A DNA stretch of 64,000 nt. It comes from Sphingobacterium hotanense (GTDB lineage Bacteria > Bacteroidota > Bacteroidia > Sphingobacteriales > Sphingobacteriaceae). The first letter of the stretch is position 1; each line of letters begins with the position of its first letter. This document shows positions 21,507 through 39,226 of the stretch, piece after piece. Location: positions 186,001 to 250,000 of the forward strand of contig NZ_CP030848.1 in assembly GCF_008274825.1 (NCBI RefSeq). Reading direction: 5' to 3'. The position numbers were made by a program, and so were the translations under genes. The notes under the pieces were generated by a model. It did not search any database. It worked only from the letters and a program-made list of their open reading frames with translations, and had not been told where the DNA came from.

Positions 21507-22556
21507 ATGAAACAAAAACTGAAATACTTAGGAGTTGTACTTGCGCTGCCCTTTCTATTCTTTTACAGCTGTAAAACGCAAAAAGGTAAATTTGAGTTTG
21601 TGAATCCCATATCGGGGACAAAGGTCTTGAAGGGTGAAAAATTGCAACTCAAGCTAAACTTCAATGATGCGGCGATAGACTCGGTCGTTTATTCTGTTGA
21701 CGGAGATGTTTTTGATCGAAAAACTGATACGACAACCGTCGCATTCGATACAGATAAGCATGGTTATGGAAATAAGCGTTTAAGCGCTAAAATCTATTCG
21801 CAAGGGAAAGAGGATGTCGCCTACAGTGATCTGTTAGTGGTTCCTCCTGCCCCTAAAGCATACGCATTTGAAGTCGTTAATACCTACCCCCATGATTCTA
21901 CGGCATTTACCCAAGGATTGTATTATGACAACGGGATTCTCTATGAATCTACCGGGAAAGAGGATAGAACTTCGCTGCGTAAGGTGGAGCTAAAAACCGG
22001 TAAGATTCTCCAAAAGATGGAAGGGGATGGAACTTTCTTTGGTGAAGGTATGACCGTTGTGGGCGATAAAATCTACTTTTTGACTTGGTTAAACAAAAAA
22101 GGATTTATTTACGACAAAGCAAGTTTGAAATTGTTGAAATCATTTGAGTATGGTAAAAGCCAAGAAGGTTGGGGATTGACTTACGACGGAAAACAGTTTA
22201 TTAAATCGGATGGTTCAGCTAACGTTTATTTCCTTGATCCGGTTAGCTTACAAGAAACAGGGTCCCTTCAAATATTCGACGATAACGGTCCGGTCGATCG
22301 CATTAATGAACTGGAGTATGTTGATGGAAAGATTTATGCAAACATTTACGACCAGTCAAAAGATGAGGTGGTTATTATCGACCCGGTGACGGGCGTTGTT
22401 GAAGGGAGAATCAATTTTGTTGGGTTATACGATGGGGTAAGAAAGTCTGCTGATAATGAGATGAATGGTATAGCTTATAAACGAGACACGAATACGCTCC
22501 TGGTGACCGGTAAGGACTGGACAAAATTGTTTGAGGTGCGCTTAAGTGAGCGTTAA
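21507..22556 (+). CDS. Glutaminyl-peptide cyclotransferase (plant/bacterial beta-propeller type), lipoprotein
   Basis: A 349-residue protein with a lipoprotein signal (FLFFYSC, C22). A short N-terminal beta domain (VNPISGTKVLKGEKLQLK) precedes a five-bladed propeller typical of the QC family (YPHDSTAFTQGLYYDNGILYESTG, EGWGLTYDG, INELEYVDGKIYANIYD). These enzymes convert N-terminal Gln of peptides or proteins to pyroglutamate, in the periplasm. The N-terminal extra domain is usual in Bacteroidota members. It stands alone between dnaG and the convergent acyltransferase. Confidence 0.9.
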   Translation: MKQKLKYLGVVLALPFLFFYSCKTQKGKFEFVNPISGTKVLKGEKLQLKLNFNDAAIDSVVYSVDGDVFDRKTDTTTVAFDTDKHGYGNKRLSAKIYSQGKEDVAYSDLLVVPPAPKAYAFEVVNTYPHDSTAFTQGLYYDNGILYESTGKEDRTSLRKVELKTGKILQKMEGDGTFFGEGMTVVGDKIYFLTWLNKKGFIYDKASLKLLKSFEYGKSQEGWGLTYDGKQFIKSDGSANVYFLDPVSLQETGSLQIFDDNGPVDRINELEYVDGKIYANIYDQSKDEVVIIDPVTGVVEGRINFVGLYDGVRKSADNEMNGIAYKRDTNTLLVTGKDWTKLFEVRLSER

Positions 22557-22910: not shown

Positions 22911-24776
22911 CTATGGCTCTGCTTCGAACAGCCTTTTTGCTAAAATAGAGGAAAGCATCTCGGTGCCATAAAGGGAATAATGGTTTGCATCGTACATAAA
23001 ATCTCCTCCTTCCGCAAATTCAAAATTTATGATTTCTATATAGTCGATGACCTTCAGGTCTTTGATGAATCGGTTAACATGGTGTGGGCCCGAAAGCTCA
23101 TACGTTTTCAATGGGCTATTCAAACGAGCGGCTTGCGCTGAAGCTATTGGGTATTCTACACTGTATTTCTTTGTCTGACCTAGATAGCTGACTGGAAGTT
23201 TCAAGGAATTAAAATAATCATGATTCGTTTTAAAAAACGTTTTCAGCTCCTGTGCGGTGTAATTGGTGTAATCTGCCATCAAGATGATTTTTTCGAATTG
23301 ATACTGATTTCTGGGTATAAACTCATCGAATAGATATCGCATTTTATCTCTGGGACCTACATAGTTTCCTGGAGCATTTTTTACAGGAAAGGTTTCGTCC
23401 ATGCTGATAATGACCAGATTGACGCCATGTTGCTGTGCTGCGCGCTTGAGTGAGTAGGAAAACATTCCCGCGTGGCAATCACCAATCAGAAGGTAGTTGC
23501 AGATCGAGTCCGACAAGCTTATCTGGGAGACTGTGCCAAGCGACTCGAAGGGTTCATGGTACTGTAAATGCGTCTTTGAGAAGCCATATTGGACGGGAGC
23601 TATTTGAGTTTTGTAATCGCGTAACGTTCGATAGGTATCCAACTGGCTTTCACTAAATATCAGATTTGGAATGCGTGGATGGGTGAACGTGAGCGTTCCC
23701 AAGGACATGATGATGGCAGGAATTAACAGCTTTTTTTCGCGGGTGATCGTTCTACGTTCAATAAGCTGATAACTAAAAATTGCCACACTCGAGCTAATAA
23801 AAATAATCATGAAAGACGTGGTCCAAGTCCGATCCATTCCTAAGTAGGTGGCGAGTACGATCAGCGGCCAATGCCATAAATAAAGACCATAGGAGTATTT
23901 TGCCAGATTAGCTATGAGCGGAAACCGATAGACCTGAAGATCGAATTCCATGAGGATGATAACGGATACACAGAGCAAGGGAAGGATTGTCGCTATGGAA
24001 GGCCAACCTTGAAGGTCCCGCGCTTCCAGCAGAAGGACTAAGGCAAAAAGCGAAATCCAACTCAGGATTGCTATCCACATCCGCTGAAATGATGACAGCT
24101 TTTGAAGCAGGGGTTGGCGAATAAAGAGTATGAGGGCGCCGCATAGAAATTCCCATAGGCGAGATGGAAATAGGTAAAACGTCGCCTTTTCATTTTTCGG
24201 GCCAAGCAAGATCATCCATAGGATGGAAATACACAGCAGTATGACTAAGCTCCATACAATAGACCGGGGATAGTTTTTACTTTTTTTAGCTAACAAAAAT
24301 AGCAACAAAGGATACAGGAGGTAGAATTGAACTTCGATGGAGAGTGACCAAGTGTGCAATAGAAAGTTCAGCTGTGCACTTGTCGAGAAATATCCGGAGG
24401 TGAAGTAATAATACATGTTCGAGAGGTAGCCAAGGCTCCAGAAAGCATTTTTTGCAAAGTCGACGATTTTGAGCGGAACGAGTAGCCATACGAGTATAGC
24501 AACAATACCGAGCATGAAAAGGAAGGCCGGCAGCAACCGGTGTGCTCTTCGCCAGTAGAATGCGATTATGTCAGATCGATCCTCGAGTCCGTTTCGCAGA
24601 AGTAGTTCGGTAATTAAATAACCTGAAAGCACAAAAAATATATCGACTCCGATAAATCCATTATTGAACCATGGAATCTGCAAGTGATAACCCAACACAA
24701 TGAAGATTGCAAATGCTCTTATCCCGTCAAGATCGGAACGTCGTTTCTTATCTGATGGGGAAAAAGAATATAACAT
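22911..24776 (-). CDS. OafA/YrhL-type acyltransferase with C-terminal SGNH-like domain
   Basis: A 621-residue protein. The N-terminal acyltransferase-3 domain has about ten membrane helices (DGIRAFAIFIVLGYH with the catalytic-type His, GFIGVDIFFVLSGYLI). The C-terminal periplasmic part is an SGNH-hydrolase-like domain. Its block I reads GDCHAG with Cys at residue 434 where GDSH is usual, and the last block is DANHYS (D596, H599). Such fusions O-acetylate surface glycans, which fits the nearby polysaccharide locus. It converges on the cyclotransferase gene. The Ser-to-Cys change may alter or keep nucleophilic activity. Confidence 0.9.
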   Translation of the reverse strand: MLYSFSPSDKKRRSDLDGIRAFAIFIVLGYHLQIPWFNNGFIGVDIFFVLSGYLITELLLRNGLEDRSDIIAFYWRRAHRLLPAFLFMLGIVAILVWLLVPLKIVDFAKNAFWSLGYLSNMYYYFTSGYFSTSAQLNFLLHTWSLSIEVQFYLLYPLLLFLLAKKSKNYPRSIVWSLVILLCISILWMILLGPKNEKATFYLFPSRLWEFLCGALILFIRQPLLQKLSSFQRMWIAILSWISLFALVLLLEARDLQGWPSIATILPLLCVSVIILMEFDLQVYRFPLIANLAKYSYGLYLWHWPLIVLATYLGMDRTWTTSFMIIFISSSVAIFSYQLIERRTITREKKLLIPAIIMSLGTLTFTHPRIPNLIFSESQLDTYRTLRDYKTQIAPVQYGFSKTHLQYHEPFESLGTVSQISLSDSICNYLLIGDCHAGMFSYSLKRAAQQHGVNLVIISMDETFPVKNAPGNYVGPRDKMRYLFDEFIPRNQYQFEKIILMADYTNYTAQELKTFFKTNHDYFNSLKLPVSYLGQTKKYSVEYPIASAQAARLNSPLKTYELSGPHHVNRFIKDLKVIDYIEIINFEFAEGGDFMYDANHYSLYGTEMLSSILAKRLFEAEP

Positions 24777-25238: not shown

Positions 25239-25394
25239 ATGAAAAACAACGTAAAAAAAGTGTACGAGGCACCTGCCATGCAGGTGTATATCGTAGAACT
25301 TGAGCAGGGCATTGCTGCGGCATCTGGCAATGCGTCAGAAACGCTTAGTGACTGGACAGATGGTACTGGTGGAAATTCAAATGGAGACTTTTAA
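25239..25394 (+). CDS. 51-residue leader-type peptide, candidate RiPP precursor
   Basis: A short frame of 51 residues, ATG to TAA. The basic N-terminus (MKNNVKKVYEAPAMQVYIVE) is followed by LEQGIAAASGN and a Ser/Gly/Asp/Asn-rich tail ending SNGDF. Y9-x-x-P12-x-M14 resembles the YxxPxL leader motif that PqqD-like RRE proteins bind in lasso-peptide precursors, and a PqqD-like gene lies 1.9 kb downstream. Ser47, four from the end, could be a kinase target. However, short KxYxxP peptides are common in Bacteroidota near other surface genes, so the role is inferred. It ends 20 bp before the fimbrillin-like gene. Confidence 0.6.
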   Translation: MKNNVKKVYEAPAMQVYIVELEQGIAAASGNASETLSDWTDGTGGNSNGDF

Positions 25395-25414
25395 CAAGGA
25401 ACAATCTTTGACTT

Positions 25415-27226
25415 ATGAAATCAGTATTAATGAAAAATCTTGCTAATAAAGTAGCTAGTGCGCTTATATTAGCCATGTTGACCCAGTTCGCTGCCAGTTG
25501 CAACAAATCTCAAGACATCGAAAAAGTGGAAACAAGCGACAAGCTGCAGTTAAGCGTAAGCATCGCCGGAATTCAAGAAAACTCGGATAAATCGGGCGAG
25601 AATAAAGCTGCCGTTAGAAATAACGTTAAGCCATTGGTTCGTTCCTACAACGAATTTGATGCGCTTGTTTCGGTTGATAACCATGTCGAGCAGAGCAGCT
25701 CCATCCGTATTCACAGTTCAGCGGCGAAGGCAAATAGCGGCGCGGCGCGTGCAGAAGCCATCGGACCAGGTGTGAAATACCGCTTGTTCCTATACAAGAA
25801 TGATGGGACCTTCGTAAGCTCTACGGCGTTGACAGCGAATTCAACGGGAAAGGTAGCAATTGAAGCTGGAGAGGATTATAAATGGTATGCGTTAAGCTAC
25901 AACAACACTGAGGATGTACCCGATGTAACAACGGGAAGTAGCGCAATTACTTTAGCAGGCGGCAAAGACGTATTGCATGCTGCGGGAACACTTTCTGTAC
26001 CTTCGGATGCTTCGGGTGCTCTTCCATTAGGTATTATCTTTAATCATAAAACTTCTCGTTTGGCTATTGAGTTGAACTCCATGGGAATGTTTGGTGACAT
26101 GAACAGCGCGACGGTAGCCGTGAGTGGTCTGAGCATGAAATCGGGAACCATCGATATCTTTACTGGAAAATACTCAGATCTTGAAGATTATACCCAAACG
26201 ATCAATTGGTCTAGCTTTGAAAATGTTGAAGCAGGCTTTAACGATCGTAAAGTTGCTTATGCCTATACGGTGGACTCTACCAATGCGAACAACGTTTCGG
26301 TAAGTATTGCTTCACTTCAGTTAACACATGCCTCAGATTTAGTAGAGGGTGAGGGTGCGACCGTGAGAAGTTTCTCAGCTACTCCAGTAAACTTCAGCCC
26401 TGTGTCGGTTACTCCGGCAATCGGGAGAACGCACCGAATCTTGTATAATCTGGTGGAATCTGCATTGACTACTGTTGGGGTGTCCAATACAGGAGACTCG
26501 GTAAGATGGTCGCGATCGAATCTATACTATGCTGCTGGCACGCATAATCCATACCGATTCTATGCAACAAATGCGCAACGTTCAGACGCAAAAAGCTATT
26601 TCGCTTATGGCGCTTTGACACCAGGTCAATTTGTTAATGCAGCGAGCAGACAAGATCCATGTGCACAGGTTTATCCGCAAGGCGTTTGGAGAACACCAAC
26701 AAACAATGATTTGTACAGTATTTCTGATGGACAGGGCCTTCTGAGCAGTCTTCTAGGAACAGTAGGATCGTTGTTAGGAGCTAGAGACGAGATGGAGAAT
26801 AGTGAACCTGGCGATGGCACGGCTACTGGACGTTATGCGCAGTTTGAGGTAACGACCCCTCCAAATACAGCTTTTGATGCTCGTTCGAACAACCTACGCT
26901 TATACTATAACGGGCAACTGCCTCGACTAGGGGTTCTTCCTAACGGTTTCTTAGACCTTGATTTATCAGGACTTGCGGCTTTATTAGGTTCAAGTTATGG
27001 AACTCAATCCCATATCTGGACATCAAATGCTCCTGCAAGCATCTTAACACTGGTAAATCTGGGCGTTTGGGGACATATTGCTTCTACGGAAAGACAAGCT
27101 GTTGCCGGGATTCCGTTTGGAACACCGTTTGTCAGAGCTAAACGTACTGGTGAACTCTTAGTTAGTGCTGTTGGTGTCGATGTATTGACCTCTACATTGA
27201 AAAACGTTCGTTGCGTACGTAACTAA
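25415..27226 (+). CDS. Fimbrillin-family-like lipoprotein
   Basis: A 603-residue lipoprotein (signal with TQFAASC, lipidated C29). The middle has the fimbrillin/FimB-like pattern (GVKYRLFLYKNDGTFVSS, EDYKWYALSYN, KTSRLAIELN). The C-terminal third begins VRWSRSNLYYA and ends in FVRAKRTGELLVSAVGVD. It is probably surface-exposed and structural or adhesive. It is preceded by the 51-residue peptide and followed by a strong terminator. No catalytic features were seen. Fimbrillins in Bacteroidota are lipidated and then processed by an Arg-type protease, but no such site was checked here. Confidence 0.75.
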   Translation: MKSVLMKNLANKVASALILAMLTQFAASCNKSQDIEKVETSDKLQLSVSIAGIQENSDKSGENKAAVRNNVKPLVRSYNEFDALVSVDNHVEQSSSIRIHSSAAKANSGAARAEAIGPGVKYRLFLYKNDGTFVSSTALTANSTGKVAIEAGEDYKWYALSYNNTEDVPDVTTGSSAITLAGGKDVLHAAGTLSVPSDASGALPLGIIFNHKTSRLAIELNSMGMFGDMNSATVAVSGLSMKSGTIDIFTGKYSDLEDYTQTINWSSFENVEAGFNDRKVAYAYTVDSTNANNVSVSIASLQLTHASDLVEGEGATVRSFSATPVNFSPVSVTPAIGRTHRILYNLVESALTTVGVSNTGDSVRWSRSNLYYAAGTHNPYRFYATNAQRSDAKSYFAYGALTPGQFVNAASRQDPCAQVYPQGVWRTPTNNDLYSISDGQGLLSSLLGTVGSLLGARDEMENSEPGDGTATGRYAQFEVTTPPNTAFDARSNNLRLYYNGQLPRLGVLPNGFLDLDLSGLAALLGSSYGTQSHIWTSNAPASILTLVNLGVWGHIASTERQAVAGIPFGTPFVRAKRTGELLVSAVGVDVLTSTLKNVRCVRN

Positions 27227-27250
27227 TTTTAGTCATTTATACTATTTTTT

Positions 27251-27284
27251 ACAGAGCAATCCATTAAAACGATTGCTCTGTTTT
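27251..27284 (+). terminator. Strong rho-independent terminator after the fimbrillin-like gene
   Basis: A perfect 11-bp stem (ACAGAGCAATC / GATTGCTCTGT) with a 9-nt loop, followed by TTTAATTTA. It lies 25 bp after the stop codon and separates the peptide-plus-fimbrillin unit from the pqqD-like operon. Confidence 0.85.
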
Positions 27285-27301
27285 AATTTATTTTTGAACA
27301 T

Positions 27302-27321
27302 AGATCAGTGGTGTCTGATCT
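27302..27321 (+). promoter_or_regulatory. Palindrome in the leader of the PqqD-like operon
   Basis: A perfect dyad AGATCAG-N6-CTGATCT, 14 bp before the pqqD-like ATG and just after the terminator. It could be an operator or an RNA hairpin covering the ribosome-binding region. Symmetry is seen directly, the role is inferred. Confidence 0.5.
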
Positions 27322-27335
27322 TAAAAGTGTACATA

Positions 27336-27605
27336 ATGAAAATAAAAGACAATTTAGTGCTGAGAAAAATAGGTAAAGATTATGTTATTGTTGACCCGAA
27401 TCAAGGTCAAGTAGATTTAAGTCGAGTTTTCAGCTTTAATGAATCTGCAGCCTTTTTAATAGAATCACTTGGTGAAAAGGAATTTGACTTAGAGACGGCT
27501 TCCACAATCTTACAAAATGAATATGGTATTGAACCAGAGAGAGCGATAAATGACTGCCGGGCGATTCTTGTTCAATTGAAGGAGCAACATCTTTTATCAG
27601 ACTAA
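27336..27605 (+). CDS. PqqD-like RRE protein (RiPP recognition element)
   Basis: A protein of 89 residues if the ATG at 27336 is used. An upstream in-frame codon at 27273 would add 21 residues overlapping the terminator loop, so it is less likely. It matches the PqqD family: LRKIGKDYVIVDPNQGQVDLSRVFSFNESAAFLIESL, then FDLETASTILQNEYGIEPERAINDCRAILVQL. PqqD-like domains bind the leader of a precursor peptide and present it to modifying enzymes. Ends 7 bp before the nucleotidyltransferase gene. It is the best clue that the neighbourhood makes a modified peptide. Confidence 0.88.
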   Translation: MKIKDNLVLRKIGKDYVIVDPNQGQVDLSRVFSFNESAAFLIESLGEKEFDLETASTILQNEYGIEPERAINDCRAILVQLKEQHLLSD

Positions 27606-27612
27606 CTTCTGT

Positions 27613-28704
27613 ATGATCGAGCAAAACTCCACGCAAGCACTGTTGGCCGCTGTACGCTCGTCGCTTTGGCAGAGCGAGGTCGACACACGCTATTTTGAAA
27701 ATTTGACCGCTAGAGACTGGAAGGAGATATATTTAATGTCTTTTCAGCAAACCGTGGAAGGCTTGGTAGCCACTGCAGTTCAGCAACTCCCTGAGAGATT
27801 GCTGCCCCCCATGGAACTGCGACTGAAATGGTTGGTCGCAACATCGCGTATCCAAAAGGCAAATCTCGCAATGGAACAAGCTATTGCAAAGCAGTATCAG
27901 CTGTTTAAAAAAGCAGGGATCCGATGTATATTACAAAAGGGGCATGGTGTCTCTAGTTACTATCCTGACCCGACCCTAAGGAAGACGGGCGATATTGATT
28001 GGTTTTTTCCCACAACGGATGATTATCAAGCTGCAAAAAAGTTAATCGTTCAGGCTGGTGCGGAGCTGAAAAGCTCTGATAGCTTTAGCAGCGGATTTCA
28101 GTGGGGAAGGTTTTATATTGAGCATCATCGGCGAATCATCCAGCTCCGGAATCCTTTTGTTCAAGGTAAGGCATCGCGTTTTGTTAACCGTGAGCTCGCT
28201 GAAAAATCACAGCATATTATCAATGGAGTTTCTGTGGAAATTCCGACTGGATTCTTGAATCTTATCCAAGTAAACGCCCATATTCTTAAGCACCAAATAA
28301 CCTATGGAATTGGTTTACGCCAGCTCTGTGATGCTTGTCTTCTATACTATGCTTACGGAAAACACATTGATCCTCAGGAATTGAAAAATATTTATCAAGA
28401 GCTGGGCATGCTAAAATGGTCGCATTACCTGCATCAAATGCTGGTAGATTTGTTTCATCTCCCGTTAGAGAATATTCCCTACCCGATCGAGTATTTTTCA
28501 GACGTCCAGTGGATGGAGAATTATATATTGCGCACTGGAAATTTTGGATTTTTCGATCCCGAACATCCCGATAGTGAAAAGCCTGGAGGACGTGTGGATC
28601 GTCCCCAACGTCTCTTTCGGAATTTTTACCGTTTTCTCGGTATAGCACCGATGGAAGCGTTGAGCTTTCCCTTTTACCAAGTTTACATTAAATCTTTTCG
28701 GTAA
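27613..28704 (+). CDS. Nucleotidyltransferase-family protein (NTP_transf_5-like)
   Basis: A 363-residue protein. The catalytic-type motif LRKTGDIDWFF gives D127 and D129, preceded by ILQKGHGVSSYYPDP, as in the uncharacterised nucleotidyltransferase family NTP_transf_5. The C-terminal part is helical (LNLIQVNAHILKHQITYGIG). These proteins recur with PqqD-like and HPrK-like proteins in lasso-type gene clusters, where some are thought to modify the peptide or a kinase product; activity here is inferred. Operon member between pqqD-like and ABC genes. Confidence 0.83.
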   Translation: MIEQNSTQALLAAVRSSLWQSEVDTRYFENLTARDWKEIYLMSFQQTVEGLVATAVQQLPERLLPPMELRLKWLVATSRIQKANLAMEQAIAKQYQLFKKAGIRCILQKGHGVSSYYPDPTLRKTGDIDWFFPTTDDYQAAKKLIVQAGAELKSSDSFSSGFQWGRFYIEHHRRIIQLRNPFVQGKASRFVNRELAEKSQHIINGVSVEIPTGFLNLIQVNAHILKHQITYGIGLRQLCDACLLYYAYGKHIDPQELKNIYQELGMLKWSHYLHQMLVDLFHLPLENIPYPIEYFSDVQWMENYILRTGNFGFFDPEHPDSEKPGGRVDRPQRLFRNFYRFLGIAPMEALSFPFYQVYIKSFR

Positions 28705-28715
28705 ACACACGCTTT

Positions 28716-30356
28716 ATGATGAACCGTCAACAGCTATCTTGGATCCTTAATTTCTCAAACGAATATAAGTACAAACTTCTCTCTTATTTCCTATTTGAAA
28801 TTTTTTCCCTGATTTTTAGCTTTTCCTTTATTTGGTATTCTAAGCTATCGATCGACGCAGCTGTGGGAGGCCAAACGGAAAGTCTTAGCGGATTGTTAGT
28901 CATTACAGCCTTGAGCATGTTGCTCTCCTTTGCATGTTCACAACTAGCATCTTACCTCAACGAGCGCAACAAAGCGCTCATGCTTGTGGATTTGCAAAAG
29001 CAAATTCTTCAAAAGCAAGTCGACGTTCGTTGGGAGGCACAGAAAAAACATACGGGGGATTTGATGGTTCGTTTACTCAATGATACCCAGGAAATCGTTA
29101 CAGCAGTCGCCCAGACCATTATAGCCTGTATGGTTAGCTTGATTAAGATCATCGCTGCGACTTGGTTTCTTTGCTGGATGGACCCCTGGTTAGCCGCTGT
29201 GCTGCTCCTTATTACTCCCTTTCTTTTGTTTTCTAAATTTTTCTTTCGGAAACTTCGGACCCTTCAAAAATCATTGAAAAATGCGGAAAGTCAGTTAGGA
29301 AAGACCATTCAAGATAATCTGCGATTGCGTTTGTTGATTCGCTCGATGAATCAAGACAAACAACGATGGCAGCACGTTGAACACGACCAAAATGAAATCT
29401 ACCAAATAAAGCGAAGTTTAATCAATTTCTCTACTTTCTCCAAAGGAATATGGGGAGGAGTTTTTAGTTTAAGTTACATTGTTGCCTTTGTTTGGGGAAT
29501 TCAGAGTTTAAATGCCGGGCTGATCACTGTGGGTACCATGAGCGCTTTCTTGCAATTGGTAATTCGTATTCAGTCTCCTGCTGCGGCACTTATTGGAAAC
29601 TTACCTTCTCTAATCCGCTTTAGCAGTGCGGTGGACCGTGTAGAGGAGATCTTGAAAGAAACGGTAGAGGAAAGGGTAGAGCCTTGTTTTCTGAAAGACC
29701 TGGTGGAAGTAAAGCTTTCCAATTTAGCCTTGCGCGTGGATGGAAACCTATTGGTCACTAATCTTGATTTTACATTTAAAATCGGTGTACCCTCCGTGGT
29801 TTTTGGTGCCAGTGGACTCGGCAAGTCGACAATCTTGCGAGCGATCCTAGGACTGCTTAATCCCGTGGCAGGGGCAATCGTCCTGAAAAATCAATCGTTA
29901 TTCCTGAGCATGAGTCCAGCATACCGTTGCAACTTCGCGTTCGTCCCGCAAGGGGAGAAGATCTTCAACGGAACAATCCGCAATAACTTGCTTTTTGGCA
30001 CGGATGGGTGTAGCGATGAACGCTTATATGAAGCGCTTGAAATCGCCTGTGCAAATTTTGTGTTTGATTTGCCGTTAGCGTTAGAGACGATGATCGGTGA
30101 GTCCGGATTCGGTCTGTCAGAGGGACAGATACAACGATTGGCAGTAGCCCGCGCTATTCTTCAGCCAGCTCGAGCCTGGGTATTTGATGAGGTTACCTCT
30201 GCGCTGGACCAAGAGACAGCGCATGCGCTAGTTCGAAACTTAATCCAAGCGGGACGCGATAAAATCATTATATTCGTCACCCATGATATAAGTTTGAGCG
30301 GATATTTTGAGAACACCTTGAATCTGACCAAGCGCGCCTTGTTAACGAAGAAATAA
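28716..30356 (+). CDS. ABC transporter, fused permease and ATPase (peptide exporter-like)
   Basis: A 546-residue half-transporter. The N-terminal type-1 membrane domain has about six helices within residues 1-300. The ATPase domain has Walker A GASGLGKST at 364-372, a signature segment LSEGQIQRLAVARAI and Walker B WVFDEVTSALD. The canonical LSGGQ reads LSEGQ. No N-terminal C39 peptidase domain is present, so it would not cut the leader itself. It probably exports the modified peptide, as in lasso clusters. Starts 11 bp after the nucleotidyltransferase gene. Confidence 0.9.
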   Translation: MMNRQQLSWILNFSNEYKYKLLSYFLFEIFSLIFSFSFIWYSKLSIDAAVGGQTESLSGLLVITALSMLLSFACSQLASYLNERNKALMLVDLQKQILQKQVDVRWEAQKKHTGDLMVRLLNDTQEIVTAVAQTIIACMVSLIKIIAATWFLCWMDPWLAAVLLLITPFLLFSKFFFRKLRTLQKSLKNAESQLGKTIQDNLRLRLLIRSMNQDKQRWQHVEHDQNEIYQIKRSLINFSTFSKGIWGGVFSLSYIVAFVWGIQSLNAGLITVGTMSAFLQLVIRIQSPAAALIGNLPSLIRFSSAVDRVEEILKETVEERVEPCFLKDLVEVKLSNLALRVDGNLLVTNLDFTFKIGVPSVVFGASGLGKSTILRAILGLLNPVAGAIVLKNQSLFLSMSPAYRCNFAFVPQGEKIFNGTIRNNLLFGTDGCSDERLYEALEIACANFVFDLPLALETMIGESGFGLSEGQIQRLAVARAILQPARAWVFDEVTSALDQETAHALVRNLIQAGRDKIIIFVTHDISLSGYFENTLNLTKRALLTKK

Positions 30357-30361
30357 GACAA

Positions 30362-31264
30362 ATGCTAGAATCGACGACAACATACTATACAATTGCAGAC
30401 CATGTCGTAAAAATCGTGGATCATATCGGTCTTGATTTAGACAGAGCCTTACCCAGCTTTCGGCCCTTTGGGGATTTGATTTCTGACACTGCGCCCATGT
30501 TAACGTTCGACATTCGTGAACGACAGGATATGGAACCCCTGCCGGCGCGTGAAACATTGAGTGACGTTTCCGTGATTTGGCTAGAAAGTTTTCGATTTGA
30601 AGAAAGTGAGAACTGTTATTTTACATCCATTTTGGCGCAAGAGCATAGCGGTGATTGGCTCATGAGTAGTGAAAAAGATTTTAGCCACTCGGTCATCTAT
30701 CCCATTGCCAATGAAATATACAATACTACAAAATTAAGCTGGTTAATTATGGTTGCCTTCGGACAAGCCTGTTTGGCCCATCGAACGTTACTCATACACG
30801 CTTCTGTCGTTGAAAATGGCGAAGCAGCTGTTGCCTTTCTAGGTAAAAGCGGAACGGGAAAAAGCACCCATTCTAGGCTCTGGATGGCGCATAACCCGAA
30901 TATTCGCCTTTTGAATGATGATAACCCGGCGATCCGGATTCTTGAAGGAAATAAGGTGATGGTTTATGGTACTCCATGGAGCGGGAAAACACATTGTTAT
31001 CGAAATGCTCGTCTCCCATTGGTTTCCATTATCCGACTTGAGCAGTCAGCCAAGAACGAGATTTTTCTTAGGACTGGAATGTTTGCCCTCACAGCGCTTT
31101 TGCCGAGCGGATCGGCTATTCGTTGGAGTTCGAAACTCTACGGCCAGATGTTAAATAATTTAGAAGAGATTCTAGCATCCGTTAAGGTTGGTCACCTCAA
31201 GTGTCTGCCAAATGCCGAAGCGGCCGAACTATCTCATTCCTTCGCTTTCGAAAGAAGGATGTGA
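30362..31264 (+). CDS. HPr-kinase-like serine kinase homolog (lasso-cluster type)
   Basis: A 300-residue protein with the HPrK/P-type P-loop FLGKSGTGKST (161-169), the upstream LIHASVV with H146 and the NDDNPAI acid pair D186/D187. It lacks the HPrK N-terminal domain. Related kinases in lasso clusters phosphorylate a C-terminal Ser of the precursor peptide. Here the candidate precursor has Ser47 near its end, which is compatible but not proof. It is the last clear gene of the operon, starting 5 bp after the ABC gene. Confidence 0.87.
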   Translation: MLESTTTYYTIADHVVKIVDHIGLDLDRALPSFRPFGDLISDTAPMLTFDIRERQDMEPLPARETLSDVSVIWLESFRFEESENCYFTSILAQEHSGDWLMSSEKDFSHSVIYPIANEIYNTTKLSWLIMVAFGQACLAHRTLLIHASVVENGEAAVAFLGKSGTGKSTHSRLWMAHNPNIRLLNDDNPAIRILEGNKVMVYGTPWSGKTHCYRNARLPLVSIIRLEQSAKNEIFLRTGMFALTALLPSGSAIRWSSKLYGQMLNNLEEILASVKVGHLKCLPNAEAAELSHSFAFERRM

Positions 31265-31975: not shown

Positions 31976-32002
31976 GTGTTTACTAAAAAGCATTCAATCA
32001 AG

Positions 32003-32569
32003 ATGACCATAGAAAATCAGATATATATGGATTTGAAGAAAGGCGATGTTCATGCCTTTCAGGTTGTATTTGATGCTTATTCAGCCAACATCTTTAACCT
32101 ATCCCTCCAAATTCTGAAAAGCAAAGTACAAGCGGAGGAAGTCGTCCAGGAAACATTTTTTAAACTCTGGTTTCATCGTGAGGAATTGGATGATGCCAAA
32201 GAATTATGGCCATATATTTATGTGATCGCCAAAAGAATCTGTTTTAATCAATTGAGATCCTTAAAGTATAATCAGCTAGCTCAGCAGGAATTGATCAAGA
32301 ATATGACGCTATCGGTAGAGGATTCTGTTCATCAGCTTACTGAAATCAGTAATATCCTGCAGGAGTCTGTCAATTTATTACCCGCGAGACAGAAACAGGT
32401 TTGGATCATGAGCAGAGAGGAAGGCAAATCGCATAAAGAAATTGCGGATGAATTAGGGATTTCTCCAAATACCGTAAAAAATACTATAGTACAATCCTTA
32501 AAAACTTTACGCCATACCTTTAAAGAAGCAGATTATCTGTACTTTATATTATTTTTGTTTTTCATATAG
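32003..32569 (+). CDS. ECF-type RNA polymerase sigma factor
   Basis: A protein of about 188 residues from ATG 32003; a GTG 27 bp upstream is also open. Region 2 has AFQVVFDAYSANIFNLSLQIL and QAEEVVQETFFKLW, and region 4 has LPARQKQVWIMSREEGKSHKEIADELGISPNTVKNTI. It would direct transcription of the downstream locus. A FecR anti-sigma gene follows and then an STN-domain SusC, the standard trans-envelope signalling order. C-terminal residues are unusually hydrophobic (LYFILFLFFI). Confidence 0.92.
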   Translation: MTIENQIYMDLKKGDVHAFQVVFDAYSANIFNLSLQILKSKVQAEEVVQETFFKLWFHREELDDAKELWPYIYVIAKRICFNQLRSLKYNQLAQQELIKNMTLSVEDSVHQLTEISNILQESVNLLPARQKQVWIMSREEGKSHKEIADELGISPNTVKNTIVQSLKTLRHTFKEADYLYFILFLFFI

Positions 32570-32616
32570 TCCCTCCCACTTCTTCGTGTGTACTTAGTAT
32601 AGTAAATACTTAAATT

Positions 32617-33777
32617 GTGCATAAGAATCGTTTCGAAGAATTAAACAGAAAATTTTTAAATAACCATATTTCAGAAGAGGAACTTCAGGAATACCTTCAG
32701 TTATTGGAGGAGAATGAAGAATTATTCTATGATACGTTAGATACAGTTTACCCGCTACCGAATCAAGGAGAATTTGATCAGCAGCAGGTGTTTCAAGATT
32801 TGTTGAATCAGATCAACCTAACAAGTTCACCTAAAACCAAAGGATTAAATTATACCTGGATTTCCATTGCGGCCACCTTGCTTTTAGTGACGGGCATAGC
32901 CTTTTATATCTGGAGAAATCCAGACAAATCCTTAGAAAACATTAATCTAACTGTTATCCCTGCGTTTGAAAATAAAGAACAACCTTCAATTGATCCTGCG
33001 GCTATCGTATTAGCAGATGGTACACAATTGTCATTGGAAGATGTTGCCCAAGAGGGAATGGAACATGACGGTGTTACGCTTTCAAAAACAGGAAATGACA
33101 TGATCAAGGTGGCCTTTAGCAAGAGTTTAGCACATACACAGAATGCCTTTCATGAATTCAGAACCACAAAGGGAACCAGATACAATCTTCAACTTCCCGA
33201 TGGCACCAAAGTTTTCCTTAATTCCGGCTCCGTCTTTAAGATCAGCGCTGATTTTAACCATCAAAGCAGAAAAAGTGAACTCTCTGGAGAGGCATTCTTT
33301 GAGGTTGCCCACAATCCTCAGAAACCTTTTCTGGTATCAACAAAAGATTATCAGGTAAAAGTGCTGGGAACCCAATTCAACGTGAAAAGCTATCCAACTT
33401 CCAGGGAATCAAGAACCAGTTTGTTAAAAGGCAGCGTACAGGTGAATTCTGCTGGGTCCAACATGATGCTTAAGCCTGGTCAGCAGGCAATAGGACAGTC
33501 CGGGAATGAACTGAAGATGGCTAAAGCCAACTTCCGGGAGGTGCTCGCCTGGCGAGACGGTTATTTTAGATTTCAGAATGCAAGTGTACGAGATATTATG
33601 AATGATATCCTAAACTGGTATGATATAAAAGATGTCATATACGAATTCAATAGTGATGAACATTTTACCGGTTCTATTAAGCGCTCTCGAAGCTTAAAAG
33701 ATGTACTTCAGAGCATGGAAAAGATATCGAACCTAAAATTTGAAATTAGAGAAGGGAGGGTGTTCGTAAGAAAGTAG
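32617..33777 (+). CDS. FecR-family anti-sigma factor
   Basis: A 386-residue inner-membrane regulator starting with GTG at 32617. The N-terminal cytoplasmic part (FEELNRKFLNNHISEEELQEYLQLLEE) would hold the sigma factor. One membrane helix (WISIAATLLLVTGIAFYIW) near residues 80-98 leads to a periplasmic FecR domain (TKGTRYNLQLPDGTKVFLNSGS, SGEAFFEVAHNPQKPF, VKVLGTQFNVKSY) and a DUF4974-like C-terminus (FRFQNASVRDIMNDI). It receives the signal from the SusC STN domain. Confidence 0.94.
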   Translation: MHKNRFEELNRKFLNNHISEEELQEYLQLLEENEELFYDTLDTVYPLPNQGEFDQQQVFQDLLNQINLTSSPKTKGLNYTWISIAATLLLVTGIAFYIWRNPDKSLENINLTVIPAFENKEQPSIDPAAIVLADGTQLSLEDVAQEGMEHDGVTLSKTGNDMIKVAFSKSLAHTQNAFHEFRTTKGTRYNLQLPDGTKVFLNSGSVFKISADFNHQSRKSELSGEAFFEVAHNPQKPFLVSTKDYQVKVLGTQFNVKSYPTSRESRTSLLKGSVQVNSAGSNMMLKPGQQAIGQSGNELKMAKANFREVLAWRDGYFRFQNASVRDIMNDILNWYDIKDVIYEFNSDEHFTGSIKRSRSLKDVLQSMEKISNLKFEIREGRVFVRK

Positions 33778-33794
33778 TTGTGAAAGAGAAAGAT

Positions 33795-33818
33795 ACGGAA
33801 GGGCGGCCACCCTCCCGT
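33795..33818 (+). terminator. Hairpin between fecR-like and susC-like genes
   Basis: Stem ACGGAAGGG / CCCTCCCGT (one mismatch) with a 6-nt loop, followed by GTTTCG. It has no T tract, so it may be a partial terminator or processing site giving a higher SusC transcript level. Confidence 0.35.
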
Positions 33819-33874
33819 GTTTCGAATGGATAAAATCCTTATTAACAGTAAATTATTTACCCAATACTAATCAA

Positions 33875-36800
33875 ATGTATTATTTTTTTACTAGAAATCC
33901 CTATTCGAAAAAAATAGGACTAAACAAACTTTTGTTAATTATGAAACTGGTTTCGTTGTTGTTACTTGGAACCATGCTCCATGTGAGCGCTTCGACCATG
34001 GGTCAGAAGATCAACATCCGCGCCAAGCAAGCGACTTTACAGGACATTTTACAGGATATTCAAAATCAAACGAATTACGACTTTCTTTATAGCAATAACC
34101 AAGTCAACAGCCTGAAAAGGATGGACGTCTTTGTGGAAAATAAAGACTTAAAGGACGTTTTAAAAAAGGTGTTGACACCTAATGGATTGGTGTTTTTCGT
34201 GGAGAACAACATGGTTCTGATTAAAACCCGTACCGAGTTGAACAGTGATCCAGCGTTGATTCAGCGTGTGATCGAAGGATATGTTAGGGATGAAAAGAAC
34301 CAACCGATTACCGGTGCTTCCGTTTCTCTTGTGAACAGCAACCTAGCGACCTCAACCGATGATAGGGGTTATTTTCGGCTAAATAGTCCGACAGAATCTG
34401 CTTCTGTTGTGATCACGGCGATCGGTTATGTCAGCCAGACTATTGCGATTTCGGGAACCTCAGCGACGAATATCGTGCTGAAGGAGTCCGTTAGTGGATT
34501 AGACGAGGTCGTTGTAGTTGGTTATGGTATCCAGAAGAAAGCAAATTTGACTGGCGCGGTATCGCAGATCAATGCCGAGGATATTGCCCTACGACCGGAA
34601 GCTAATATCGCCACCACCTTACAGGGGTTGATGCCCGGTCTGAACATTCAAATGAATAATGGTGACCCATCTACCACGCCCGATATCAACGTTCGTGGGT
34701 TTAATTCGATCAACGGAGGAAACCCGCTGGTGTTAATCGATGGAATTGAAGGGAATATTACCCGAGTAAATCCCAATGATATTGAAAGTGTAACAGTACT
34801 TAAGGATGCATCATCAGCATCCATTTATGGCGCACGTGGAGCCTTTGGGGTGATCTTAATTACGACCAAAACAGGGAAGGCGGGAACAACCTCGGTTACT
34901 TATACCAATAATTTTGGCTGGACTTCTCCGACTGCAAGGACGGATTATATCTCCGATCCCTATGTGTATGGAAAAACGGTAGATGCTGCCCTCTTTGGTT
35001 ACAACGGATCTTCATATACCAATTACAACGAGATGGATTGGGAAACGATCAAGATGGTGGCCAATGGAGAAATTGAACCGTTCCACGAATTACAAGCTGA
35101 TGGATCCTATAAATTCTTCCATAAATCCAATTGGTGGGATCACATGTTTAAAAAGCATCAGGCGTCGAATTTTCATAATATTGCCATATCCGGTGGAACA
35201 GAAAAGTTGAAGGGCTACCTTTCTGGTCGAATCTTCGAGCGTGAAAGCATCAATAATATAAATGACGATGCCAATATGGATCGCCAGAACCTGAAGGCTA
35301 ATTTGGTATTCACACCTAACTCCTGGTTGGAATTATCGAACAACATCCAATTTATCAACGAGAAGGACAAGGATTATGGTGGCTATACCAATGGTTTCGG
35401 TGGCTTGTGGAGTACAACCACCTGGTATAATCTGATGGCCTTTTACCCTATTATGGTAGATGGTGTACCGACCGATATCGGAACAGGTACTGGTGGCCAA
35501 GGTGGTAACGCAGGTCTGCATTCTGGTAAAACCTGGCGCTTGTTCAATAATGAGGAGTTTACCAATACGTTTCGTGTAGTGGCAAAACCATTGGAAGGTC
35601 TACAGATCAATTTCGATTATAGTAATCGTATTGAGAATACGGCACGCAGCTTTCGTTTGAATCCCTTTGACTATTTAGCAGGAAATCGATTGGATTTCCG
35701 TACGGTTGGTTTGAATCGATTGACCGAATACAGATGGAAAGATAAGTATAATGCGCTAAACCTGTTTGCGACCTACAATAAGACCCTCGCAAATAAACAT
35801 AACCTGAAATTGTTGGCAGGTTTTAACCAAGAGCAGTTTGACCGCGATCGTGTTGCCACCACTGCCGATAACCTGTTGATCGAAGATCTTTCTAACCTAT
35901 CATTAGCAACGGTGATGAATAGTATTTCGGGCTCAGCAACCAACTGGTCTATCCAGGGATATTTTGGACGATTGAACTATGATTTCGATAATAAATATCT
36001 ATTAGAAGTGAATGCTCGCTATGATGGTTCTTCCCGTTTCCCAGTTGACAGTCGTTGGGGACTGTTCCCGTCGGTTTCCCTGGGGTGGCAGGTGGATAGA
36101 GAATCTTTCTGGGAGGCTGCTCGTCCCTATGTTTCTTCTTTAAAGTTCAGAAGTTCCTACGGTGTGTTAGGGAACCAAACTGTGGATGTAAATACTTTCA
36201 AGGAATTGATGAACGTAGGAACTTCTGAATGGTTGAATGGTGGTCAACGATTGATATTTGCGTCTGTACCAGGGCCTTTACCCAATGTGGTGACTTGGGA
36301 GACCACAAAAAGCTTGAATATAGGTGCCGACCTTGGATTTCTGGATAATAAACTCTTGTTGAACCTGGATTGGTACAGGAAAAATGTGGAAGGTATGTAT
36401 CTTCCGGGAGAACCTCTACCAGCTGTGTTTGGTGCCAATGAGCCTAAGGAGAACTATGCAGCGCTGCGAAATGATGGTTATGAGATCGCAGTTACTTACC
36501 AGGATAAATTTGATCTTGCCGGAAGTCCATTGCAGTTTAATGTGACAGCCAACGTAAGCAATTTCAAAGGTGTCATCACCCGATACAATAACCCTAATGG
36601 CTTATTGAGCTCATACAACGAGGGGGAGCGTCTGGGCGATATCTGGGGCTACCGAATTGCTGGTCAGTTCCAGTCCGATGAGGAAGCATTGGCTTACCAA
36701 AACTCGTTTACCAATCCCGGAAACAGTCTTTCGCAAGTGTACAATGATATTCTGAACGTGATGCAGAACAGCGAATGGAATCACCTACGCGCTGGCGACA

Positions 36801-37444
36801 TCAAATATCTGGATCTCAACGGAGATGGAAGAATTGATAAAGGCCAAAATACACTTGCTGATCACGGAGACTTAGAGCGTATCGGAAATTCCATGCCTAA
36901 GTTTCCATTTGGTTTGAACCTGAGCATGCGCTGGAAAAATATCGATATGGGCGTAGCCTTGGCAGGGGTTGCCAGTCAGGATTGGTACCCTACAGGAGAT
37001 CTTTACTGGGGACCATACCAACGCCCATATTTATCGTTCATCCGAAAAGATTTAGTTGATAATGCTTGGAGACCGGATAAGACCCAGAACACCTATCCAC
37101 AGATCTATCGCGGGTATTCATCGCTACAATCCGGGAGATCATTATATGAATTGAACGATTATTATTTAACCAATGTTGGTTTCCTGCGTGTTAAAAACCT
37201 GAGTTTGGGTTATACTTTCCCGCAATCCTGGACGCAACGAGCAAAAGTGCACAAGCTAAGGGTATTCTTTAGTGGAGAGAATCTATTTACTTGGAGCTTC
37301 GGGGGCTTGACTAAATATATAGACCCCGAACAAGCGGGCTCTTCCGTGGATTATTCCTCTCCGGCAACAGCGGATGATCGTGGTGACCTGCGGTCCTACC
37401 CGATGGGAAAAACGATTTCTTTTGGTGTCATGTTAACCCTATAA
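33875..37444 (+). CDS. SusC/RagA-family TonB-dependent transporter with STN domain
   Basis: A 1189-residue outer-membrane transporter. After the signal peptide come an STN signalling domain (residues about 45-110: QKINIRAKQATLQDILQDI), a carboxypeptidase-regulatory-like domain (about 130-205), a TonB box EVVVVGYG near 208-217, a plug (TGAVSQINAEDI, VNVRGFNS-type) and a C-terminal 22-strand barrel with a terminal Phe/Leu-rich strand. The STN domain plus the neighbouring sigma/FecR pair means substrate binding can induce the locus. It imports the glycan captured by SusD. Confidence 0.96.
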   Translation: MYYFFTRNPYSKKIGLNKLLLIMKLVSLLLLGTMLHVSASTMGQKINIRAKQATLQDILQDIQNQTNYDFLYSNNQVNSLKRMDVFVENKDLKDVLKKVLTPNGLVFFVENNMVLIKTRTELNSDPALIQRVIEGYVRDEKNQPITGASVSLVNSNLATSTDDRGYFRLNSPTESASVVITAIGYVSQTIAISGTSATNIVLKESVSGLDEVVVVGYGIQKKANLTGAVSQINAEDIALRPEANIATTLQGLMPGLNIQMNNGDPSTTPDINVRGFNSINGGNPLVLIDGIEGNITRVNPNDIESVTVLKDASSASIYGARGAFGVILITTKTGKAGTTSVTYTNNFGWTSPTARTDYISDPYVYGKTVDAALFGYNGSSYTNYNEMDWETIKMVANGEIEPFHELQADGSYKFFHKSNWWDHMFKKHQASNFHNIAISGGTEKLKGYLSGRIFERESINNINDDANMDRQNLKANLVFTPNSWLELSNNIQFINEKDKDYGGYTNGFGGLWSTTTWYNLMAFYPIMVDGVPTDIGTGTGGQGGNAGLHSGKTWRLFNNEEFTNTFRVVAKPLEGLQINFDYSNRIENTARSFRLNPFDYLAGNRLDFRTVGLNRLTEYRWKDKYNALNLFATYNKTLANKHNLKLLAGFNQEQFDRDRVATTADNLLIEDLSNLSLATVMNSISGSATNWSIQGYFGRLNYDFDNKYLLEVNARYDGSSRFPVDSRWGLFPSVSLGWQVDRESFWEAARPYVSSLKFRSSYGVLGNQTVDVNTFKELMNVGTSEWLNGGQRLIFASVPGPLPNVVTWETTKSLNIGADLGFLDNKLLLNLDWYRKNVEGMYLPGEPLPAVFGANEPKENYAALRNDGYEIAVTYQDKFDLAGSPLQFNVTANVSNFKGVITRYNNPNGLLSSYNEGERLGDIWGYRIAGQFQSDEEALAYQNSFTNPGNSLSQVYNDILNVMQNSEWNHLRAGDIKYLDLNGDGRIDKGQNTLADHGDLERIGNSMPKFPFGLNLSMRWKNIDMGVALAGVASQDWYPTGDLYWGPYQRPYLSFIRKDLVDNAWRPDKTQNTYPQIYRGYSSLQSGRSLYELNDYYLTNVGFLRVKNLSLGYTFPQSWTQRAKVHKLRVFFSGENLFTWSFGGLTKYIDPEQAGSSVDYSSPATADDRGDLRSYPMGKTISFGVMLTL

Positions 37445-37456
37445 GTTGAAAACATC

Positions 37457-39226
37457 ATGAAAAAAATGACGATAAAATATTATATATACGCTGTGGCAAG
37501 TGTTTTCTTGCTAGGTTCCTGTAATAAGGATTTCTTAGAGCGGCCATCAGAGGATCAGGTAGAAGCGCCGTATTTCTTTAATACCGCAAAGGATCTGGAA
37601 GTGGCAACCAATGATTTTTATACCATGTTGGTAACGACATCCGTTTATTCGGAAGATGCCAACTCGGATAATTTAATGCCCTTGAATCCTGCCGATAAGA
37701 TTAAAGGAAATAGGATTGTTCCGGTTGCCAGCGGTAGCGGCGGTTGGTCTTGGGGAAATCTTCGGAAAATAAATTATTTTCTAGCGAACTTTCATAAAGT
37801 AGCCGATGAAGATGCCAAAGCCAAGTATGCTGGAATTGCCCGTTTTTTTAGAGCGTATTTTTATTACGATAAGGTGAAGACTTTTGGTGATGTGCCCTGG
37901 TACGGAAAGGTCTTATCGGCAAACGATCCCGATCTTTTTAAAGCGAGAGATTCCCGGTTTTTGGTAATGGATTCAATTATGGCCGACTTGGATTATGCCA
38001 TCGAACATATTCCCGCGGAGAAGCAAGTGAATTTAGTGACAAAGTATACCGCCATGTTGCTGAAGTCACGCGTAGCATTATTCGAAGGGACTTTCCGAAA
38101 ATATCATAAGCTGGAAGGGGCTGATAAATTCCTGAATGAAGCGGTTGAAGCTTCCCAGATGCTGATCAATTCATCTGCTTATACCTTATTTACTGACGGA
38201 GGAGCAGCTGCCGCTTATCGAAATCTTTTTGCCCGTGATAAGCAGGATGCCATAGAAACAATATTGGCTGTTGACTACGAATTGGGACTAAAGGTCCATA
38301 GTACGGCTTATAATTTTACTTCTGCTACTTCCGGGTCTTATGGACTGATGAAAGATGTAGTGAATAGTTACCTGATGAATGATGGCTCCCGATTTACAGA
38401 CAAGTCCGGTTATCAGACCTATTCTTTTTTCCAGGAGATGCAGAACAGAGACCCTCGGTTGACGCAGACCACAGCTGGGCCAGATTTCAGAGTGAACGGT
38501 GAATCAAAGAATGAACCAGTGACCTTGAACATCACAACGACAGGTTACCGCTTGATCAAAGCCCTGCCAAACAGAGCCCAGTGGGGTACCGGAGCTTCTG
38601 TATTCGATATCGTTATTTTCCGTTTTGCCGAAGCATTATTGGTCAACGCGGAAGCAAAAGCAGAACTAGGAACATTAACCCAAGGGGATCTGGATAATAC
38701 CATCAATAGATTGAGAGCGAGAGCGGGCATGCCTAATTTGAATTTGGTACACGCAAACGCCAATCCGGATCCTTATTTGGAAGAAATGTATCCGAATGTG
38801 GAAAATACAGCTAATAAAGGGGTGATCCTTGAAATACGGAGAGAAAGAAGGATAGAGTTGTTCAATGAAGGATTGCGCTGGGATGACCTGATGCGTTGGA
38901 AAGAGGGCAAAAAAGTGACCAAGCCAATGGTCGGAGTATATTTCTCCGGTTTAGGAAGCCATGATTTTACTGGCGATGCCGTTCCCGATGTGTTTTTGCA
39001 TACAGGAAGCACAGCAGGTGCACCTGCCTCCATCACTTCCTTTATCAACATCAATCAAAGAACCCTTAGAAATCCATTAACTGGACAACAGAATGCGACT
39101 TCCGGAAATCTAGATCCATTTCCGCAGGGAGGAGTTTTCGATGAGCAAAGGGATTATTTTGCGCCATTGCCTTCCGAGGATTTGATCTTGAATAAAAATT
39201 TAGTCCAGAACCCAGGTTGGAAATAA
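37457..39226 (+). CDS. SusD/RagB-family nutrient-binding lipoprotein
   Basis: A 589-residue lipoprotein (signal ending SVFLLGSC, C22). Family features are the N-terminal NKDFLERPSEDQVEAPYFF, the RFFRAYFYYDKVKTFGDVPWY TPR motif and the C-terminal EIRRERRIELFNEGLRWDDLMRW. It forms the lid of the SusC pore and binds the substrate at the cell surface. Starts 13 bp after the SusC gene. Confidence 0.95.
   Translation: MKKMTIKYYIYAVASVFLLGSCNKDFLERPSEDQVEAPYFFNTAKDLEVATNDFYTMLVTTSVYSEDANSDNLMPLNPADKIKGNRIVPVASGSGGWSWGNLRKINYFLANFHKVADEDAKAKYAGIARFFRAYFYYDKVKTFGDVPWYGKVLSANDPDLFKARDSRFLVMDSIMADLDYAIEHIPAEKQVNLVTKYTAMLLKSRVALFEGTFRKYHKLEGADKFLNEAVEASQMLINSSAYTLFTDGGAAAAYRNLFARDKQDAIETILAVDYELGLKVHSTAYNFTSATSGSYGLMKDVVNSYLMNDGSRFTDKSGYQTYSFFQEMQNRDPRLTQTTAGPDFRVNGESKNEPVTLNITTTGYRLIKALPNRAQWGTGASVFDIVIFRFAEALLVNAEAKAELGTLTQGDLDNTINRLRARAGMPNLNLVHANANPDPYLEEMYPNVENTANKGVILEIRRERRIELFNEGLRWDDLMRWKEGKKVTKPMVGVYFSGLGSHDFTGDAVPDVFLHTGSTAGAPASITSFININQRTLRNPLTGQQNATSGNLDPFPQGGVFDEQRDYFAPLPSEDLILNKNLVQNPGWK

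Follow-up and report, generated by a model that had tools for sequence, protein, structure and literature searches.

The DNA analysed here (the window, 64,000 nucleotides) corresponds to C1:186001-250000 of the 4.49-Mb single-contig genome of Sphingobacterium hotanense; positions below are those within the window unless they carry the prefix C1. A short peptide gene and the gene of a fimbrillin-like lipoprotein precede a cassette for a PqqD-like protein, an NTP_transf_5 protein, an ABC exporter and an HPrK-like kinase. The PqqD-like protein is of the RRE type (recognition element of ribosomally synthesized and post-translationally modified peptides, RiPPs). Together with an S24/S26 peptidase-like gene, the cassette probably constitutes a lasso-like tailoring and export system that operates without a cyclase and serves many peptide substrates in trans. 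The following features were located.

25239..25394, + strand: precursor-like peptide, 51 aa, with a Y9xxP12xM14 leader, E20, E22, I25-A26, S29 and a core with DW
25263..25274, + strand: Y9-E-A-P12, putative lasso-type RRE-binding motif; Y and P invariant in 36/36 aligned sequences
25311..25325, + strand: I25-A-A-A-S29, proposed cleavage behind A26 and candidate phospho-acceptor Ser29; spacing as in BsfA Ile(-2)...Ser3, function suggested by analogy
25415..27226, + strand: fimbrillin-like lipoprotein paired with the peptide; low-confidence fold matches; cluster protein after the peptide in 38/44 cases
27251..27281, + strand: terminator-like hairpin and T-rich run between the lipoprotein and PqqD genes, -15.5 kcal/mol, z -4.97; also present in genome G092
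27336..27605, + strand: PqqD-like RRE; PF05402; nearest solved structures to the model are TbiB1 and TfuB1, with leader peptide
27613..28704, + strand: NTP_transf_5 protein; PF14907; G126-D-I-D129 invariant in 17/17
28716..30356, + strand: ABC exporter without C39 domain; ABC_membrane and ABC_tran Pfam matches
30362..31264, + strand: HPrK-like kinase; H146, K167, D186 and D187 invariant in 21/21

Because the hairpin parts the peptide-lipoprotein pair from the PqqD gene, both here and in G092, the pair may be a separate transcription unit. Pattern scans for promoters and terminators gave sites no more numerous than in shuffled sequence; the terminator scan had a loop limit of 8, and the hairpin, with a loop of 9, is not among its sites.

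An earlier note on this DNA, made from the letters alone, had assigned the four cassette proteins, and all of them were confirmed. The PqqD-like protein matched PF05402 (E=4.6e-12) and the NTP_transf_5 protein PF14907 (E=9.4e-37). The ABC protein matched ABC_membrane and ABC_tran, with no match to peptidase C39; it was also the only protein matched by PADLOC, which gave no defence-system reading for the locus. The HPrK-like protein had no Pfam or NCBIfam match above cut-off and only weak HprK_rel matches; for HprK-related kinase A (TIGR04352) it scored 22.7 bits where the cut-off is 200. The His-Lys-Asp-Asp residues of its family were kept in all 21 aligned sequences and are of the types named for lasso kinases in passages of PMC9266682 and PMC10368454. 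With a profile of the PqqD family the nearest matches were lasso RREs (TfuB1, E=9.2e-7). In fold comparison the PqqD model (predicted local distance difference test, pLDDT, 82.5) came closest to TbiB1 and TfuB1, both solved with leader peptides, at 21-23% identity. By profile and model the protein thus appears to be a lasso-type (B1) RRE. The S24/S26 peptidase-like gene of S. hotanense lies elsewhere in the genome, at C1:365607-366032, outside the window cassette. Both proteins of this family that were tested passed Peptidase_S24, and Ser34 and His72, which we read as a Ser-His pair, were kept in 8/8. The solved chains nearest to the family profile were Sec11 signal peptidase subunits (E=1.6e-4).

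The peptide described in the earlier note, with 51 residues and Y9-E-A-P12-A-M14, was confirmed at its position. In comparison with its G092 homologue it behaves as a real gene, because at 82% identity the synonymous divergence (dS) is about 1.0 and the nonsynonymous divergence (dN) 0.14. A dN/dS comparison indicated purifying selection on both the peptide and the lipoprotein. A search with the single peptide sequence at E<=1 found a match in 77 of 93 genomes of the genus, many far below E=1, which places the peptide beyond chance. No hydrophobic signal sequence was seen in it by eye.

A family profile was built from 36 peptides. It recovered 11 members in S. hotanense, and the highest count in one genome of the family-level set described below was 18. 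The most members seen, 26 at E<=1, were in G706, titled Elizabethkingia sp. YR214, which may be a misnamed Sphingobacterium. Counting distinct sequences only, YxxP was present in 77 of 79 peptides from fetched loci. Among these 77, Y+13 was Glu and Y+16 was Ile, Phe, Val or Leu in every case, Y+20 was Ser in 76, and the core held Trp in 73. As in a YxxPxL leader, Y+5 was Ile, Val, Leu, Met or Phe in 69, with Met in the window peptide. Bacteroidales members are distant from the profile seeds yet have the same spacing. The family lacks an NCBIfam model; of the 36 members, the one with the strongest hit reached E=0.057, against an unrelated family. In an unguided comparison of 1513 small open reading frames near PqqD genes, the peptide formed the largest conserved family, with 15 distinct sequences at 16 loci, a count that includes L122 and duplicates from collections sharing genomes (e.g. 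L148 and L090). The runner-up had 5 sequences at 8 loci. A Bacteroidales group of the peptide appeared in 5 further loci, and frames that overlap or lie antisense at the same loci are among the other large groups.

The peptides are dispersed over the genome and mostly stand directly before a fimbrillin-like lipoprotein gene. Of 44 fetched peptides with enough sequence after them, 38 were directly followed by such a gene, and in S. hotanense the lipoprotein profile was found beside 9 of 11 peptides. The window lipoprotein had no Pfam match; its model (pLDDT 58, low confidence) matched Bacteroides adhesins of the fimbrillin type and Mfa2, but is too weak for detail. The lipoprotein at L218 is Mfa_like_1, and the one after the single peptide inspected in G031 is short (174 aa). 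The earlier note had allowed that the peptide might belong only to the fimbrillin gene. In such a case it might act in regulation or assembly, and the substrate of the cassette would be exopolysaccharide or something else. Many of the peptides followed by a lipoprotein are at loci without PqqD, and cassettes often lie beside Wza, Wzc and glycosyltransferase genes, as would be expected of an unrelated role. The pairing with the lipoprotein stands; the exclusivity is unlikely, since peptide presence follows the cassette across genomes. As peptide and lipoprotein usually pair, the association is true alongside the link to the cassette.

Co-occurrence was counted in a family-level set of 301 genomes from 25 genera, including 68 of Sphingobacterium. 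A PqqD or S24/S26 match was called strong at E<1e-29, and weak matches (E 3e-6 to 9e-4) in 11 and 9 genomes of other genera, respectively, were scored as absent. The peptide profile matched 57 genomes (56 of the genus), strong PqqD was found in 55 (54 of the genus) and strong S24/S26 in 54 (53 of the genus). In each case the remaining genome was G129, of another genus; outside Sphingobacterium, the peptide, strong PqqD and strong S24/S26 are all confined to it. Peptide and PqqD were both present in 54 genomes, the peptide alone in 3, PqqD alone in 1 and neither in 243. Within the genus the corresponding counts were 53, 3, 1 and 11 (n=68, Fisher p=2.7e-9). PqqD and S24/S26 were found together in 54 genomes, PqqD alone in 1, S24/S26 alone in none and neither in 246. 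Single-sequence searches found PqqD relatives in 71/93 and the kinase in 73/93 genus genomes, a few as fragments; a first scan of the genome-contig collection with a single PqqD sequence had returned nothing.

Of 46 genomes selected outside the genus for a similar kinase, 33 contained the peptide at E<=0.01 and 42 at E<=1. This set represents 47 of 80 kinase loci, the excluded ones being 31 titled Sphingobacterium, L191 on a short contig and L225, on a contig titled as a Rickettsiales metagenome-assembled genome and probably contamination. In a class-wide background outside the genus the peptide was found at E<=0.01 in 3 of 392 genomes (395 minus three matching genomes of the genus), a background drawn without selecting against the cassette and possibly different in its mix of orders. 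The locus at L225 is of the Bacteroidales type, PqqD-NTP_transf_5-HPrK, and the assignment of the contig is probably a binning error. Peptide and cassette thus co-occur across genomes. That peptide presence tracks PqqD and S24/S26, and that kinase-bearing genomes of other genera have the peptide, speaks against a peptide serving the lipoprotein alone, as do the lasso-type leader motif and the lack of a visible signal sequence.

Gene neighbourhoods reaching at most about 10 kb to either side were inspected at 41 of 91 PqqD places (L003 and 40 stretches). Priority went to the best matches, to second copies and to complete genomes, and the loci were selected no later than the peptide search; L122, fetched for its peptide, does not enter the proximity count. 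Within about 20 kb of PqqD the kinase was found at 36 loci, NTP_transf_5 at 31, ABC at 30, S24/S26 at 26 and a thioredoxin-like gene (DUF5106 plus thioredoxin) at 11, the Wzc cluster at 28 and the Wza cluster at 24. The peptide lay in this range at 13 loci, 6 of them within 3.5 kb, against about 0.03 expected per locus (genome 4.9 Mb). The order PqqD-NTP_transf_5-(ABC)-HPrK-Wza-Wzc-peptide-lipoprotein was observed in Sphingobacterium (L069, L102) and in Bacteroidales (L218, L211), with the Wza and Wzc families confirmed by domain check on examples including L218 and L211. At the 80 kinase loci, some on short contigs, PqqD was present in 69, S24/S26 in 54, ABC in 47 and NTP_transf_5 in 45. At L185, L187, L193, L212 and similar Bacteroidales loci, HPrK, S24/S26 and PqqD, in some with ABC, occur without NTP_transf_5, and no precursor was found nearby; these loci are a smaller version of the system.

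The smallest unit seen was a PqqD-HPrK pair (L072, L079, L081). Six genomes with such a pair apart from the remaining genes were examined. In five of them (G064, G014, G043, G025 and G027, the pair in G027 known by coordinates only) NTP_transf_5, S24/S26, the thioredoxin-like gene and ABC lie at a peptide-lipoprotein locus elsewhere. In the sixth, G006, NTP_transf_5 and ABC were both absent from the one peptide locus fetched. The system seems to be genome-wide and to act in trans on dispersed peptides. That NTP_transf_5, S24/S26 and ABC stay with the peptide in genomes where the set is split is a further point against restricting the peptide to the lipoprotein, and altogether we judge that explanation unlikely. 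The cassette might instead only escort, cut and export the peptide, with the kinase and NTP_transf_5 regulating or acting on another target and the product left unmodified. The inclusion of ABC and S24/S26 in the set and the presence of NTP_transf_5 at only 45 of the 80 kinase loci would fit this; the invariance of the kinase catalytic residues and of the GDID motif in the alignments does not, and a PqqD-HPrK pair as the smallest unit is what an RRE-kinase partnership would give. We consider an unmodified product decidedly unlikely.

The lack of a visible cyclase, pointed out in the earlier note, was borne out among the flanking proteins: neither an asparagine-synthetase-type cyclase nor a transglutaminase-type protease was detected among seven of them (17180-39226) and the acyltransferase at 22911-24776. 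No cyclase match (PF00733) was found among the window proteins scanned; a genome-wide search for PF00733 was not made. The lasso protease PF13471 was found in 0/93 genus genomes, while the same search matched 2/14 control genomes, one of them over the cut-off. A ring-forming acid at core positions 7-9 was present in 16/77 peptides against about 33 expected by composition, if the core starts behind A26. Since the protease search in the genus came up empty and the peptides have no conserved ring acid, the system is not classed as a lasso cluster, yet it would work like the tailoring part of one. The RRE, kinase, nucleotidyltransferase, ABC protein and YxxP leader are all lasso-cluster parts and would fit a lasso cluster, genuine or decayed, whose distant cyclase would lie elsewhere in the genome; given the results for protease and ring acid and the purifying selection on peptide and lipoprotein, this explanation is highly improbable. 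The proposal in the earlier note of a lasso-type leader peptide served by the cassette holds for the pairing, which is supported by the co-occurrence, by an RRE closest to lasso RREs solved with leader and by the negative PF13471 search; the product chemistry it suggested, perhaps a phosphorylated or nucleotidylated peptide lacking a macrolactam, is conjectural.

A second PqqD-NTP_transf_5-ABC-HPrK set is encoded in the same genome at C1:2475055-2478979, beside Wza-like (Poly_export, SLBB), Wzc-like (GNVR) and glycosyltransferase genes. At C1:4159424-4161598 (L274, about 9425-11599) a third kinase gene, decayed and spread over several frames, adjoins an ABC gene of the cassette ABC family; the two are the remains of another cassette. 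Upstream of the window locus, 21507-22556 encodes a glutamine cyclotransferase (PF05096), a different enzyme from the lasso cyclase, and 22911-24776 (- strand), adjoining the peptide, an acyltransferase fused to an SGNH domain. Genes of similar appearance (cluster c21) are also found close to the peptide locus of L068, L070 and L090. Directly downstream, at 31976-39226, an ECF sigma factor, FecR, a TonB-dependent receptor and a SusD-like protein make up an ordinary nutrient-uptake locus.

For the chemical steps and the surface role of the tailoring and export system we infer the following. The PqqD-like RRE would bind the YxxP leader of small peptides encoded around the genome, and the HPrK-like kinase would phosphorylate the conserved Ser (Ser29 in the window peptide). 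NTP_transf_5 may then add a nucleotide or sugar to the phosphate, as PsmN is thought to do with hexose. The S24/S26 (Sec11-like) peptidase would cut near A26 and the ABC protein export the core, which might act at the surface together with the lipoprotein encoded next to it, in many cases within the context of an exopolysaccharide locus. The motif offsets for Y, P, +5, hydrophobic residue and Ser are 0, 3, 5, 16 and 20 here and 0, 3, 5, 15 and 19 in BsfA, numbered Y(-17), P(-14), L(-12), I(-2) and Ser3 in passages of PMC10368454. The step from hydrophobic residue to Ser is four in both, and by analogy Ser29 would be core residue 3 if the cut is behind A26. According to the same passages, BsfK phosphorylates Ser3 of BsfA, and the RRE BsfB1 greatly raises this activity. 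PsmN has been linked to hexoses added on phosphoserine (passages of PMC9266682 and PMC8498205).

Several points weigh against this reading. No modified peptide was observed. In the passages of PMC10368454, exchange of the BsfA motif residues Tyr, Pro and Leu for Ala, even all three, left phosphorylation intact, and for PsmN a host glycosyltransferase acting after nucleotidylation was not excluded (passages of PMC9266682). Lasso kinases known before BsfK act on a C-terminal Ser, with which only 5 of the 77 peptides end, and the distance from Y to the hydrophobic residue is 16 here and 15 in BsfA. The window PqqD by itself matches TfuB1 only at E=0.15, the clear match requiring the family profile. 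The conservation of the peptides is partly built in, because they were gathered by profile, and part of the correlation within the genus may be shared descent, because the counts use no species tree. The peptide was seen at only 16 of the 80 kinase loci. The peptide occurs without PqqD in G001, G031 and G069, PqqD without the peptide in G003, and PqqD without S24/S26 in G086.

An open-access literature search, with subscription papers and preprints mostly outside its scope, gave no description of the system. In the text open to a term search, a Bacteroidales RiPP paper (PMC10352776) had no hit for HPr, S24 or YxxP and mentioned lasso in no place other than one reference and the glossary; a graspetide paper (PMC8939145) likewise had none for HPr or S26. 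The system points to an undescribed route to modified surface peptides. If the proposed reading is true, a lasso tailoring module of RRE, kinase and nucleotidyltransferase exists apart from lasso formation and serves dispersed peptides in trans. Its reach would include gut Bacteroidales (Prevotella, Phocaeicola, Muribaculaceae and Alistipes by record title) besides Sphingobacterium, and there would be a reason for kinase, NTP_transf_5 and PqqD genes in exopolysaccharide loci. It would also offer testable biochemistry for a peptide family without an NCBIfam model and for the adjoining fimbrillin-like genes. A bolder proposal is a Bacteroidia-wide phosphoglycopeptide class, in which one trans-acting set makes peptides with phosphate-linked sugar and the sugar couples peptide and lipoprotein to the exopolysaccharide of the neighbouring locus; we regard it as rather unlikely.

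Among known systems, HprK-related kinases A and B and ScmC (TIGR04352, TIGR04355, TIGR04249) show weak similarity to the kinase, far below the curated cut-offs. By fold the PqqD model is nearest to TbiB1 and TfuB1, and TfuB1 is the best match by profile; identity in the fold alignments is 21-23% only, and the genus search did not turn up the protease that partners them in lasso clusters. The paeninodin and pseudomycoidin systems (PadeK, PsmK, PsmN), as described in passages of the cited papers, likewise combine an HPrK-like kinase and a nucleotidyltransferase acting on a peptide Ser, and the phosphoserine can take hexoses, but the modified residue there is the C-terminal Ser of a lasso peptide. 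The Bradymonas bsf cluster (BsfA, BsfB1, BsfK, BsfN; passages of PMC10368454) has a protease B2, a cyclase C and one precursor, whereas neither enzyme was found here and the peptides are many and dispersed. With that cluster the S. hotanense system shares the RRE, the HPrK-like kinase, the predicted nucleotidyltransferase, the ABC protein and the YxxPxL leader, and the kinase of bsf is boosted by its RRE.

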